A DNA stretch of 64,000 nucleotides, taken from contig JAGVKB010000030.1 of the NCBI GenBank assembly GCA_020050835.1, positions 1 through 64,000 on the forward strand, in the 5' to 3' direction. The notes beneath the pieces are model-generated. The model searched no databases, was not told the DNA's origin, and saw only the letters and a list, made by a program, of their open reading frames with translations. Position 1 is the first letter of the stretch; each line of letters begins with the position of its first letter. The DNA is from Candidatus Obscuribacterales bacterium (lineage in GTDB: Bacteria > Cyanobacteriota > Vampirovibrionia > Obscuribacterales > Obscuribacteraceae). This document shows, one piece after another, positions 1-43,726 of the stretch. The translations under genes and the position numbers were made by a program.

Positions 1-381
1 AGTGCGGTAAAACTCGCCCAGGTCGTGGATTCTGAACGACCAGGGGCGTGATGTTTTTCCACCAGTTGCTTGCGCAACAAACCAATCTTTCGGCTTGTAT
101 TCGTCTATCAGTTCAATCAGCGCCTTTGCAAGTAACTGCGGTCCGCCCAATTCCAGAAGTCTTTCGACGGTTTGGAAGTTGCGCTCTCGCTTTCCTATCG
201 AGCCAGGCGTGTTATACCTGACGCTTTTCTTGTAACAATTCTGATTGCATGTCGTCGTTGCCACGTCGCCGCAAACTTCCTCGGGCGGTAGTGCAAATGA
301 CGGTCCGGCCTTACTGTTATCGGTAGCCTCCAGTCCGTACTTGAAAGAAGTAATTTCCGTTCTGTTCTTGAGCGTTTGCAT
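1..381 (-). CDS. GP88-like plasmid/phage protein (3' end outside window)
   Basis: The frame starts at ATG 381 and stays open to base 1, so at least 127 residues are present and the C-terminus lies outside the window. The sequence has the layout of the phage 'gene product 88' family: an early NSK-G-P-F-LPP segment, then spaced cysteines (VCGD, TTTCNQNC, then YKK), then a later FRIHDLGEF segment. The family is found on phages, plasmids and integrative elements and its biochemical role is not established. A strong ribosome site (GGAGG about 8 bases upstream) supports the start. It is the last gene visible in the left backbone block and lies just downstream of a large hairpin (418-521). Confidence 0.7.
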   Translation of the reverse strand, partial: MQTLKNRTEITSFKYGLEATDNSKAGPSFALPPEEVCGDVATTTCNQNCYKKSVRYNTPGSIGKRERNFQTVERLLELGGPQLLAKALIELIDEYKPKDWFVAQATGGKTSRPWSFRIHDLGEFYRT

Positions 382-417
382 TGTTTGTCCTCCATGCGTT
401 CCGCGCGGAGGCTCGCC

Positions 418-521
418 ACCGGCTTGGCTCTGCGGGTCAAGCCGTGCATGCAGGGAATTGGTATAAAAAAAGACTCTTCAGATGGGAAGGATGGCTTGAC
501 GCGCGGTGGTGCCAAGCCGGT
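418..521 (-). repeat. Two-stem hairpin element, copy 1
   Basis: The outer arms ACCGGCTTGGC (418-428) and GCCAAGCCGGT (511-521) pair perfectly over 11 bp. The inner arms GTCAAGCC (436-443) and GGCTTGAC (493-500) pair perfectly over 8 bp. An asymmetric internal loop of 7 and 10 bases separates the stems, and the apical loop is 49 bases. The element lies 37 bases upstream of the GP88-like start codon, so it would be in that gene's leader if transcribed leftward. A second copy with the same stems and a different loop is at 1852-1954. It could be a structured RNA leader or a DNA hairpin used in recombination or transfer. Confidence 0.75.
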
Positions 522-613
522 AGCATGAAGAACCGCGGGACGCAGGAGATGGATCGTTCTTAGCAAAAAGGAAAAGGTGGAGTGGATCAGATCCACCCCA
601 CCTTAGATGTGTT

Positions 614-802
614 CTAGTTTTGGGCTCGGGCTGCAGGAATGAGCAATTGATCGAGAATGAGGATGTCGCAGAAGTCGCAGAAGATTCTTATCGGTTCCGT
701 TATCGGTATGCGCAAGGTGCGCATGGATTCATCGGCACAGCCCGGACAAGCGACATAATCAGTTTCGTGATCAAGAAAGATGATGGTCTCTTGTTCAGGC
801 AT
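614..802 (-). CDS. Small protein with two CxxC pairs
   Basis: This 62-residue product has an acidic N-terminus and two cysteine pairs, CPGC near residue 19 and CDFC near residue 42. That spacing is compatible with a small zinc ribbon. Its ATG overlaps the stop of the preceding gene in a TAATG arrangement, which indicates translational coupling with the 120-residue protein. No family was recognised. It is the last gene of a four-gene leftward block lying between the two hairpin copies. Confidence 0.6.
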   Translation of the reverse strand: MPEQETIIFLDHETDYVACPGCADESMRTLRIPITEPIRIFCDFCDILILDQLLIPAARAQN

Positions 803-1164
803 TATTTATGTGTTCTCCCGTTGCTCTTTGCGGACTCCCATGGTGTGACGGAGACGCCGGACAGCAGTTGCTTCAGCGTCTCTTGAACCAGTTTGGCAGC
901 GCTTTGTTCGACCGGCTCCCACTCAACAGGCAACGGTAAATAGGTCGGCTTGCCCTGCATTTGGCGAGTGATGTGCCAGAAGTGACTGATGTGCAGGAAA
1001 AGTCTCAGTATGAGCTGGGATTCTGGATGGTAGTAGTTAGCTTTTGTAATTGCCTCGAATTCCTCTGGAGAGAGAAGCTGCATCGCCAGCTCTTTCTGGT
1101 TGATCTTTACTGTCGGTTTCGGTTTTGTTTGCGTTGTTGTTTTGCTCACGGTCTGCTTTGGCAT
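802..1164 (-). CDS. Hypothetical backbone protein, 120 aa
   Basis: The protein has a Lys/Thr-rich, probably disordered N-terminus (about residues 1-25) followed by a mostly helical segment containing LSPEEFEAITKAN and HISHFWHITRQMQGK. A good ribosome site (AGGAG about 7 bases upstream) supports the start. It is coupled by a one-base stop/start overlap to the downstream CxxC protein. I do not recognise a family. Its setting among DUF7007-like, ribbon-helix-helix and GP88-like genes points to a maintenance or accessory role on the mobile element, which is inference. Confidence 0.6.
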   Translation of the reverse strand: MPKQTVSKTTTQTKPKPTVKINQKELAMQLLSPEEFEAITKANYYHPESQLILRLFLHISHFWHITRQMQGKPTYLPLPVEWEPVEQSAAKLVQETLKQLLSGVSVTPWESAKSNGRTHK

Positions 1165-1218
1165 GATTGTTCTCCTATAAGTGTTTGATCAATGTCAGTA
1201 ACATTGGGAATTCGAACG

Positions 1219-1482
1219 CTAGCCTCTGAACCGCTCTGCATACTCCGGGAAGGGCGCGAGTATGATACTTGCGTCGCAGTCTTCTTCGTACCAGCCCTTC
1301 ATTCCAAGCTGTAAGAAGGTGGATTGCCTCAGCCTGAGTGGCACACATGCGTTTCGCTCATCGCTCAGGTGGAATCCACCGTGGCTGGCGGTCGAGTAGA
1401 AGGTAATGCCTGGCGCGATTACTTCGCTGGTTTGAGCGGCTCCCCAGGGGGTTTCCGGCAGTTTTTCAATCTTCGTGTTCAT
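1219..1482 (-). CDS. DUF7007-like protein
   Basis: This is an 87-residue protein. The central motif order TPWG-AQ, IAPGI-FYSTASHGGFHLS, then GWYEEDCD and a closing FPEYAERF matches the DUF7007 domain that I know from plasmid and integrative-element genes of Proteobacteria. It is shorter than many members and appears to be little more than the domain itself. GGAG lies about 9 bases upstream of the ATG. The function is unknown. Its presence ties the left flank of the window to mobile-element backbone rather than to the host chromosome. Confidence 0.7.
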   Translation of the reverse strand: MNTKIEKLPETPWGAAQTSEVIAPGITFYSTASHGGFHLSDERNACVPLRLRQSTFLQLGMKGWYEEDCDASIILAPFPEYAERFRG

Positions 1483-1564
1483 GGTGTGATTCTCCGTTGC
1501 TGTATGACTAAAAAGCGGGCAGGTCGTTTCCGTCCCTGCCCGCCTTGCAGCCAGCTTCCAATAC

Positions 1565-1795
1565 CTAGTTGATCACTCTGGTAGAGAGTGCGTAGGATTG
1601 TTCGAGCTGTTGCCGTTCAGGTCCTTCTGCGGACGATTGCACGCACGAAGCAATGTCCGGCAGACGAAAGCTAGCCACGTAACGGCGTAACGCTTCGCGC
1701 ATCAAATCGCTTCGTGTCCGGTGCTCCGCTTCCGCGACATAGTCAACTTGCGCCAGTAGTGACGGTGGAAGTCCGATCAATACCTTTTTAGCCAT
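1565..1795 (-). CDS. Ribbon-helix-helix (CopG-type) DNA-binding protein
   Basis: This 76-residue protein begins KKVLIGLPPSLLAQVDYVAE and continues with an RTRSDLMREALRRYV helix pair. That is the beta strand plus two helices of a MetJ/Arc/CopG fold; such proteins bind DNA as dimers through the paired strand. A clear ribosome site (GGAG about 9 bases upstream) supports the start. It is the first gene of the leftward block, and hairpin copy 2 sits 57 bases upstream. A role as autoregulator of the block or as an antitoxin-like repressor is plausible, but no toxin partner is visible next to it. Confidence 0.75.
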   Translation of the reverse strand: MAKKVLIGLPPSLLAQVDYVAEAEHRTRSDLMREALRRYVASFRLPDIASCVQSSAEGPERQQLEQSYALSTRVIN

Positions 1796-1851
1796 AGCTG
1801 AAATCTCCTTGCTTTAGTCCGGCCACACGCGCAGCCGTGCGCTCTCCCGGC

Positions 1852-1954
1852 ACCGGCTTGGCTCTGCGGGTCAAGCCGTGGATGCAGGAGGACAATGTGG
1901 TCAGGTCGCAGCTAGAGGGCGGGCTGGCTTGACGCGCGGTGGTGCCAAGCCGGT
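1852..1954 (-). repeat. Two-stem hairpin element, copy 2
   Basis: The arms are identical to copy 1: the 11-bp outer stem uses 1852-1862 and 1944-1954, the 8-bp inner stem uses 1870-1877 and 1926-1933. The internal loops are the same (TCTGCGG and GCGCGGTGGT). The apical loop is 48 bases and, after its first dozen bases, unrelated to the loop of copy 1. The element is upstream of the ribbon-helix-helix gene. Together the two copies bracket the four-gene block 614-1795. Confidence 0.75.
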
Positions 1955-2019
1955 AGCATAAGCGCACACGGCGGCGGGTTTAATCTCATGAGAGGTACCA
2001 GGCGCTAGAATTGCGGTAC

Positions 2020-17200: not shown

Positions 17201-19138
17201 GTAGGGTCGAGCACTGGCGCGGTAACTTCCGTCCCGTTTCCAGCACCCGCCACCTCAAACCGGACAGGCGGTTTTCCCGCATCCGGCTTTCCTGGGAGTT
17301 TCATTGCGGGGGTTATGTAGCTTGTCGAACTGGGGTGACTGTCGGACCTGCATACTGCACCCGGTAGTCGTTGAACAGACCCAGGGCTTCGTATAGCAGT
17401 TCCTTACTCCATCGCTCCCAGCCGACACCCTTGCGCTTACAGGCTTTGCTCAAGTGTCGGCGCACTTTCCTTTCCACCCAGTCTTTGATGTAGCTGAAGC
17501 ATGAGCTGGAATGGCCAATGCGAAAGTAATTGACCCAGCCCCGGATAATCGGGTTGATTGTTTCAATTACCATTCTTGCCGGCCAGGATTTCATTTGTTT
17601 GAATTCTTGGCTTAGCTTGGTCATCAGCTTATCCCGGCTCTTTGCCGCCGGTGAAAAGTGTGGTGCGAACTTGCCCTTACGGGTTTTCATTCGGTAGAAC
17701 TGAAATCCAAGAAACTTGAATGTCTCCCCGTTTCGCAGGCAGACGACTTTCGTCTTCTCGCGATTCATTTCGACTCCAAGTTTATCGAACTCCTGTCTAA
17801 GCCGTTTCATGACTTGGGCAGGAAGTTTCGTCCATGTGGGATGTCCGTCCACCAAAACCACCAGATCGTCGGCGAATCGCGCGTACTCAAGGTGGAAGTA
17901 TCTATCCTTCCCATATGTGTATCGCTTTGCCTTCTCAAGCATCTTATCGATTTCATTCAGATAGATGTTGCTGAGTAGCGGTGATAGCGGGCTTCCCTGG
18001 GCTATTCCAGTTCTTGCGACCGATTTCAGAATCAGCTTAATTAGGCGCATGACCTCATTGTCGTTGACTCGCTCTGCTATTTTGGTGAGCAAAGTGTGAT
18101 GCCGGACGCTTCCGAAGAAGTCCTTCAGGTCAATATCAATCACCGTCGTCTGATAGCGCACTATCGCTTCTGCCACTCTGGTGATTGCCTGGTGAGTGGT
18201 GCGCTTTGGTCTGTATCCAAATGAACCTGTCTGGAAGTCTGCTTCGAAGACGGGTTCCAGGATGAGTGTCAGCGCACCTTGCACCACTCTGTCTCGGATC
18301 GTTGGAATCGAAAGCGTTCTGGTTTTTCCATTTCCTTTCGGTATTTCAACTCGCCGAGGTCGCGTTGGTCTGTAACTGCGATTCCGAAGGTCGGCTTGTA
18401 TGTCGAATAAGAAGGCATCGAGACCGCTTTGCTCGACCTGGTCAAACGTAACGCCGTCCGCTCCTGGAGCGCCGCCGTTTACCTCTGCCAGTCGGTAGGC
18501 TTCTCTCAATGTTTCCAGCTTAACGACATGGACAAACATGCCCCAGAATCGCTTGCTCGGGTTGGCTTTCGCCTCGCAATATATTCTCCGTCTCAGGTCC
18601 TGCAAATTAATGGACGCCTTTATCATCTCGTCCTTGCCTCCCTTCTGATTGAGAAGTTTCTTCCAGTAAGGTCCCTTTGCTCCTCAGGCGTTACCCTGCC
18701 TCATCGCTACTACGGACCTCTCCGTCACCCTGCCGACTTTCGGTTCATTTCCTTGTGTAAAAGTTATTGAACCTACCTTGCTTCCGTGATTTCTCATCCG
18801 GGTCGAGCAGGGTTTCTCCAGTTCCGGTACGTGTCCTGTGCCACCATGTCGTCGCTGCTACTCCGCCGAGGTGAAACGTTGCGTCGGTCGTATTTCAACG
18901 TTTCCTGTTGCTTTCGCCCCTACATAACGGGCTCAGCTCTCGGATTTTAGCCTTTCGAAGCTACTTGTGCGTTCACTCTCGTTACGACCTACTGGCTCGC
19001 GAATGCCCTTCGGCATCCTTGTCAGATGGGCTTCGAGTACTTCGTTACCTCCGTCCCCGCCATCTTAGCTACCGGGTTACGACTTTTACCCGGGTGGGTC
19101 TTACTCCCACTGAACACGTCCAGCTTCGCTGGACGCAC
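17201..19138 (-). mobile_element. Complete group II intron with maturase, inserted in xis
   Basis: Read on the minus strand, the element opens with GTGCG at 19138 and ends CGACCCTAC at 17201. About 510 bases of structured RNA (domains I-IV) precede the reverse transcriptase frame. Domain V is at about 17256-17289 (AGCCGGATGCGGG, a GAAA-type loop, CCGCCTGTCCGGTT), followed by a domain VI hairpin. Excising 1,938 bases joins the two xis exons in frame, which fixes both boundaries. A loop closed by CCC/GGG near 18917-18931 holds TATGT, able to pair with the GCATA end of exon 1 (candidate EBS1). The intron appears splicing-competent. Confidence 0.9.
17313..18626 (-). CDS. ltrA: Group II intron reverse transcriptase/maturase
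   Basis: This 437-residue intron-encoded protein contains RT blocks from GGAPGADGVTFDQ through PKGNGKTRTLSIPTIRDRVVQ, QGSPLSPLLSNIYL and the active-site YARFADD near residue 250 (FADD replaces the commoner YADD). The maturase domain X follows (NPIIRGWVNYFRIGHSS). There is no HNH endonuclease domain, so mobility would rely on reverse splicing into replicating or single-stranded DNA. The frame lies in domain IV of the intron and is intact. The protein should assist splicing of the interrupted excisionase transcript. Confidence 0.93.
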   Translation of the reverse strand: MIKASINLQDLRRRIYCEAKANPSKRFWGMFVHVVKLETLREAYRLAEVNGGAPGADGVTFDQVEQSGLDAFLFDIQADLRNRSYRPTRPRRVEIPKGNGKTRTLSIPTIRDRVVQGALTLILEPVFEADFQTGSFGYRPKRTTHQAITRVAEAIVRYQTTVIDIDLKDFFGSVRHHTLLTKIAERVNDNEVMRLIKLILKSVARTGIAQGSPLSPLLSNIYLNEIDKMLEKAKRYTYGKDRYFHLEYARFADDLVVLVDGHPTWTKLPAQVMKRLRQEFDKLGVEMNREKTKVVCLRNGETFKFLGFQFYRMKTRKGKFAPHFSPAAKSRDKLMTKLSQEFKQMKSWPARMVIETINPIIRGWVNYFRIGHSSSCFSYIKDWVERKVRRHLSKACKRKGVGWERWSKELLYEALGLFNDYRVQYAGPTVTPVRQAT

Positions 19139-43552: not shown

Positions 43553-43606
43553 CGAAGGGGTAGCAGTCATCAGCCGTACGGCGGTTATGGCGGACTCCAT
43601 CACCTT
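43553..43606 (-). ncRNA. Fluoride riboswitch (crcB motif)
   Basis: Read on the minus strand the leader has GGTGATGGAGTCCGCC, then AACCGCC, then GGCTGATGACTGCTACC in the order and spacing of the crcB/fluoride aptamer, including its pseudoknot-forming segments. It lies 22-75 bases upstream of the crcB ATG. Fluoride binding should turn on expression of crcB and the coupled genes. The short distance to the start suggests control of translation initiation or early termination. Confidence 0.92.
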
Positions 43607-43726
43607 TAAAACTTGAAGTATTCTATCACTAAGTTAGAATGCTTAGACGCCGGTTCGTGGAGACAACAGAGGCCAGTGTCTATCAAAAATATTCCTTCAG
43701 TCGATTGATTTACCTGGCGTCACAAA

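Follow-up and report, generated by a model that had tools for sequence, protein, structure and literature searches.

The closest described relatives, in manner of working, of the hairpins discussed here are the single-stranded promoters of conjugative plasmids. Frpo of F is a stem-loop that rebuilds the -35 and -10 boxes and gives early expression in recipients (PMC9849209). Anti-defence and other leading-region genes lie on the transferred strand, where homologues of Frpo have been found by BLAST and more candidates by pattern search; the known single-stranded promoters are mainly five Frpo/ssi sequences together with these BLAST relatives and pattern candidates (PMC11541004).

The window analysed here is the first 64 kb (64,000 nt) of a 123.5-kb contig from a Candidatus Obscuribacterales genome of 7.0 Mb, and it holds two hairpins, copies a and b, which we compare with these promoters. 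What they would have in common with Frpo1 and Frpo2 of F and with ssi of ColIb-P9 is that the transferred strand folds and so restores -35 and -10 boxes upstream of leading-region genes (PMC9849209, PMC11541004); several copies are present per element, and the genes are read towards oriT. The leading region of F, which we read as a yardstick, has the same general layout as the hairpin loci. However, the Obscuribacterales hairpins have no A+T-rich UP stem, while they do have a 19-nt spacer opposite 15-16 nt, a bubble the size of an open complex followed by a downstream duplex, and an invariant internal loop (GGTGGY/TCY), all unlike Frpo/ssi. Their host phylum is another one, and so are the genes behind them (GP88, RadC-like, ribbon-helix-helix or RHH, sigma factors). 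The covariance model of the hairpins, R1, gave no match in the F leading region. Since there is no sequence relation to Frpo, our claim is that the hairpins work like Frpo and not that they are its homologues. In our opinion they are very probably Frpo/ssi-like single-stranded-DNA promoters of a new, sequence-unrelated family, situated in the leading region of a conjugative or mobilizable element of Obscuribacterales. They share with the Frpo-like candidates of anti-defence islands (PMC11541004) the -35/-10 hairpins before leading-region genes on the transferred strand; those candidates came from BLAST or pattern searches, whereas here the fold, the strand and the bubble are backed by covariation and wobble asymmetry over about 80 copies.

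The first-pass annotation had described two hairpins with identical stems and different loops, and the measurements agree with it. The perfect 11-bp stems (P1) at 418-428/511-521 in copy a and 1852-1862/1944-1954 in copy b are identical, as are the perfect 8-bp stems (P2) at 436-443/493-500 and 1870-1877/1926-1933. The strands of the internal loop are the same in both, the apical loops of 49 nt (copy a) and 48 nt (copy b) are unrelated, four minus-strand ORFs lie between the copies, and minus-strand ATG codons follow at 381 and 1795, 37 and 57 nt off. A third, outer stem, P0, which the annotation had missed, is also present. Within the 64-kb window CCGGCTTGGC-N7-GTCAAGCC occurs without mismatch only at the two copies, and shuffled sequence gives 0.07 matches even with up to 3 mismatches. 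For copy a we propose folding of the plus strand, which is the template of the GP88 gene. From the geometry of the -10 element, transcripts are predicted to start near 406, reading leftwards to the ATG at 381, and for copy b near 1840. The terminator-like hairpin listed in the table would end the upstream gene block ahead of copy a. No ordinary sigma-70 promoter match faces the GP88 or the RHH gene in the stretch scanned. Elsewhere in the window there are Rfam matches to group II introns (17201-17291 and 18851-19103, minus strand) and to a fluoride riboswitch (43554-43613, minus strand, 53 bits).

Table 1. Hairpin elements and associated genes in the window, with the support for each where given
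Feature	Position	Strand	Support
GP88 gene (PF17338), truncated by contig end, served by copy a	1..381	-	E 1.3e-9
Copy a P0, 5' strand, pairs with 532-544	395..406	+	
Copy a hairpin core (P1, internal loop, P2, apical loop)	413..526	+	covariance model, 96.6 bits
Copy a predicted -35 element TTGACG, non-template arm of folded strand	496..501	+	consensus over 74 copies
Copy a 19-nt spacer, non-template arm, with conserved CGCGGTGG internal-loop side and P1	502..520	+	
Copy a predicted -10 element TAGCAT, mostly unpaired, at base of P1	521..526	+	TANNNT consensus
Copy a P0, 3' strand	532..544	+	
Terminator-like hairpin, 14 pairs then T-rich tail	574..604	-	
62-aa ORF, copy b block	614..802	-	
120-aa ORF without Pfam match, copy b block	802..1164	-	
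DUF7007 (PF22653) gene, in block read from copy b	1219..1482	-	E 1.1e-24
Ribbon-helix-helix (CopG-like) gene, served by copy b	1565..1795	-	clustering; homologous family scored RHH_1
Copy b P0, approximate 5' strand GTGCGCT, pairs with AGCGCAC near 1961-1967	1836..1843	+	
Copy b hairpin core; folded strand plus, template of RHH gene	1847..1959	+	97.4 bits
Copy b predicted -35 element TTGACG	1929..1934	+	
Copy b predicted -10 element TAGCAT, 19 nt past the -35 element	1954..1959	+	

The two hairpins are not alone. A pattern and BLAST search of the same genome gave 11 copies in all, nine of them beyond the pair in the window, and these vary mainly in P1 and the apical loop; the 11 are distributed over contigs C101 (2), C104 (3), C90 (2), C94 (2), C46 and C149. 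The block on C104, with its three hairpin copies, is homologous to that of the window, about 80% identical and with the same starting base. Side by side, positions 1-1508 of the window and 1-1521 of locus L006, from the same genome, have a common starting base within GP88 and share about 80% identity over 1.5 kb; they are two related elements whose shared continuation is unassembled.

The check that had been suggested, a structure-based search for more copies in relatives, did find them, with covarying stems. R1, built from the 11 copies of the window's genome, recovered 77 coding-strand copies in 33 of the 382 genomes sampled from the class, all of them Obscuribacterales, and no match outside the window's own family. 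In a second sample of 386 genomes of the phylum the only genome with a match was that of the window. A pattern scan of named genomes returned records titled Candidatus Obscuribacterales, Obscuribacter or Melainabacteria, and single records with Cyanobacteria and Proteobacteria titles. The phage collection and IMG/VR had no match to the hairpin, BLASTN against the plasmid collection gave only a 30-nt chance match (E 0.3), and no Rfam family reaches its gathering threshold. It is highly likely that the two hairpins are among about 80 members of a hitherto undescribed family of folded-DNA promoters carried by mobile elements of Obscuribacterales.

P1 and P2 covary across copies, and the kind of mismatch that is tolerated tells which strand folds. 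Read on the coding strand, all pairs except the outermost in 74 distinct copies comprise 1465 Watson-Crick pairs, 107 A.C or C.A and 4 G.U. The excess persists when related copies are thinned out, the ratio of A.C to G.U being 63:4, then 29:1 (23 representatives), then 12:0. An A.C mismatch corresponds to G.T on the complementary strand, so selection has kept the fold of the template strand, which in the window is the plus strand. The computed DNA folding energy is likewise more favourable for the template strand in nearly all of 45 copies.

This result bears directly on the conserved RNA leader that the first-pass annotation had offered as one explanation; we take this as a riboswitch-like or protein-binding structure in the 5' untranslated region that controls translation. 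Like riboswitches and other structured leaders, the hairpins covary, stand at a near-fixed distance ahead of start codons and are linked to gene families. However, an mRNA fold would accept G.U, while we count 4 G.U against 107 A.C; it is the strand complementary to the mRNA that was selected to fold, and that strand carries the -35 and -10 boxes. A leader would also explain neither why TANNNT is conserved and unpaired, nor the 19-nt spacing, the symmetry of the bubble or the orientation towards oriT, and there is no match in Rfam. The annotation was probably mistaken on this point, and we regard a leader as very unlikely.

The anatomy of the fold is promoter-like. On its 3' arm the folded strand bears TTGA(C)G and TANNNT, separated by 19 nt in 71 of 74 copies; TANNNT is present in 85% of copies and in 44 of the 45 best. 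The information content of this second box (T 1.2, A 1.7, N 0.06, then 0.8 and 0.65, and T 1.8 bits) is like that of a -10 element, and the base opposite the conserved -10 A is random (0.08 bit). This arrangement accounts for the pattern of conservation: P2 is nearly invariant because the -35 element sits there, the outer part of P1 covaries freely because it is spacer, and the outermost bases are invariant because they belong to the -10 element. The opposite arm has 15-16 nt against the 19 nt of the promoter arm, and the effective spacing may be near 17 because of the 6/3 internal loop. That loop (GGTGGY on the non-template arm, TCY on the template arm) hardly varies, and neither does the GC/GGC next to it (columns 18-25 and 187-196 of alignment A3).

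Two features of the fold count against reading the hairpins as promoters. The GGTGGY/TCY loop is more conserved than recognition by sigma-70 needs and is kept even in copies without a TTGAC box, and it is the most divergent copies that lack this box. The loop might act structurally and make the spacer shorter, or it might be bound by a specific factor; both are possible.

The outer stem P0 scores 14.6 with a copy's own flanks and 9.4 (sd 0.44) with swapped flanks, over 49 representatives, and the gaps on its two sides are nearly equal. An unrestricted search for P0 gave a weak signal, and the restriction to near-equal gaps was chosen afterwards and applied equally to the controls. Covarying P0 pairs include GGCTTTTC/GAAAAGCC, GCGTTTC/GAAACGC, GCGCTA/TAGCGC, CCGTC/GACGG and GCCGCA/TGCGGC. 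Between P1 and P0 there remains a symmetric unpaired bubble, which starts at about -11 and ends somewhere from +1 to +4. A stretch from -11 to about +3 matches the size of the transcription bubble in bacterial open complexes. In double-stranded DNA the same boxes form a promoter directed away from the gene; in the fold they direct into it, because the template of the folded strand is then its 5' arm and 5' flank, which is also the template of the gene.

The wobble asymmetry would equally suit RNA or any other nucleic acid that has the template-strand sequence, and hence an antisense RNA, or the 3' end of a convergent transcript, that is structured and regulates the gene. Such an RNA predicts neither -35 and -10 boxes in the fold, nor a bubble the size of an open complex, nor a constant orientation relative to oriT, and in our opinion it has only a slim chance of being correct.

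Nearly all copies end some 30-50 nt ahead of a start codon that has a ribosome-binding site. The proteins encoded downstream belong mostly to GP88 (29), sigma-70-like (19), RadC-like JAB (10) and ribbon-helix-helix (8) families, with singletons such as DUF2958. Where the start of a GP88 gene is readable, a hairpin, degenerate in some cases, precedes it in 23 of 26, and the other three genes stand directly behind an RHH gene, as if in the same operon. Where a contig has two or three copies, these share a strand; on the 1.8-Mb contig G103:C2 there are two loci of opposite strand, each internally consistent. A sigma-70-family (ECF-like) gene follows about a quarter of 74 hairpins (for example L006:1531-2061, L071 and L084). 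Other neighbours include an AEP-TOTE-type primase upstream of the hairpin genes on G087:C7 (L128:3585-5402) and an ORF resembling AEP-TOTE primase at L006:5741-7537.

The association with genes is also what separates a promoter from an ssi that mainly primes the copying of the entering strand into its complement and serves gene expression only secondarily. Priming needs the same fold and the same strand, and Frpo is described, in the title of Masai and Arai 1997 as cited via PMC9849209, as serving both transcription and primer synthesis. Priming alone, however, does not need copies that are tied to particular genes, that lie 30-50 nt before starts with a ribosome-binding site and that occur up to three times per element, and we consider it improbable as the principal function.

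The attC logic invoked by the first-pass annotation holds in part, in that, as in integron attC, a folded single DNA strand with conserved stem elements and a free loop is very likely functional. Still, almost no credence can be given to a recombination site of mobile gene cassettes: copies do flank a gene block, but promoter elements are conserved in them, the R-box GTTRRRY is indeed absent from both sequence and alignment, there is no cassette logic, and the hairpin type tracks the downstream gene family across genomes (four families at a near-fixed distance, the 23 of 26 GP88 genes among them, often as single copies), so that they are not cassette boundaries.

The position of the hairpins relative to transfer functions could be computed in relatives. 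PF03432 relaxase genes are present in 15 of 16 hairpin genomes tested, and no MOBF/TrwC relaxase was found in them. Relaxase-bearing contigs hold 31 hairpins; for 21 of these the relaxase gene follows at 2.8-12 kb downstream, on the same strand (three of these pairs treat the G143 contigs as circular), and hairpins within 13 kb of a relaxase are on its strand in 24 of 25 cases. Three copies before sigma-factor genes lie past the relaxase and not ahead of it, which counts against our reading.

Between the hairpin genes and an RHH-plus-relaxase operon, which was read out at one locus, a conserved, oriT-like intergenic region with GACGCGCAA and GTAAKGCAAGATAMA is found in 12 of 12 loci. These are L128, L130-L133, L135-L137, L125-L127 and L028, in which the region is upstream of the RHH and relaxase (MobA/VirD2) genes. 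GTAAKGCAAGATAMA has 61 matches, spread over 27 of the 48 family genomes scanned, and the reversed pattern has one; the relaxase lies 0.6-1.2 kb beyond the site in 22 of 24 cases. There are 25 hairpins with such a site at 25 kb or less, and every one of them is upstream of it and on the same strand. Four of these relations assume that the G143 contigs are circular; for one of these contigs, C134, end overlap gave no confirmation of circularity. For two further hairpins the nearest site lies the other way, at 34 and 41 kb.

The invariant core of the region, TATCTTGC, is the reverse complement of GTAAKGCAAGATAMA and is identical at 7 of 8 positions to the MOBP nick consensus (C/T)ATCCTG(C/T), at which the relaxase attaches to the 5' end (PMC3772185). 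The nick would fall at TATCTTGC, so that it is the template strand of the hairpin genes that would be transferred, just what the promoter model calls for. On the 5' side of the putative nick there is an inverted repeat, distinct in some loci; its weakness in several others and the single mismatch to the nick consensus count against the model. Apparently the region represents an undescribed oriT family. The contig of the window stops within GP88, and an attempt to join it to the starts of relaxase-bearing contigs found no overlap; its oriT and relaxase context comes from relatives, from which we infer that an oriT adjoins the window's own copies. A small gene pair, coding for an HTH protein (LLTRREAAxYLGVSEQTL) and a membrane protein of about 90 aa (IEQILLIIFMLMVFVGIAGGNPSMV), is located between the hairpin genes and oriT, some 0.7-1.5 kb upstream of the relaxase, in L125, L126, L127, L130, L135, L137 and L028.

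Three features of the Frpo/ssi class are found here: a single-strand stem-loop with -35 and -10 boxes, a folded strand that is the template of the downstream gene and, in relatives, a leading region on the strand transferred first, the nick strand being taken from the motif. As members of the class the hairpins would also have to be transcribed by RNA polymerase from single-stranded and not from double-stranded DNA. A single-stranded promoter of this kind could work as follows. Once the transferred strand (in the window, the plus strand) has begun to enter a recipient, each site would fold, with P2 and P1 as the upstream duplex and the 3' arm bearing TTGACG and, 19 nt on, TANNNT. The asymmetric internal loop, with 15-16 nt on the other arm, would probably bring the effective spacing to about 17. 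Positions -11 to +3 would stay unpaired on both arms and P0 would provide the downstream duplex; with its unpaired bubble and P0 duplex, the fold resembles a promoter pre-melted for RNA polymerase. The polymerase would bind and then move out of the hairpin over the 5' flank, which serves as template for the gene 30-50 nt further on, and mRNA for GP88, RHH, RadC-like protein or sigma factor would be made before the second strand is copied. Since the -35 and -10 boxes point away from the gene in double-stranded DNA, the genes would be silent or weakly expressed in the donor.

A more far-reaching view is that the hairpins form an independently evolved class which pre-forms the whole open complex, in which the 6/3 loop is an adaptor that makes the 19-nt spacer work only when folded, which faces the wrong way in double-stranded DNA and is active in the entering strand, and which through about a quarter of its copies starts a sigma-factor expression cascade. 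We would put the chances of this at about even. It would be unusual for an element to express a sigma factor so early on entry, with its first genes.

Compared with the known single-stranded promoters, the hairpins are an unrelated family from a distant phylum. Because the family is large, covariation and wobble asymmetry show both the folding strand and the melted bubble, which provides a test for single-stranded promoters, based on sequence only, for any conjugative element. For the Obscuribacterales, the hairpins would indicate which genes their mobile elements express first, namely GP88, the DUF7007 block, RadC-like, RHH and sigma-factor genes, and this makes these genes candidates for functions in establishment or anti-defence.
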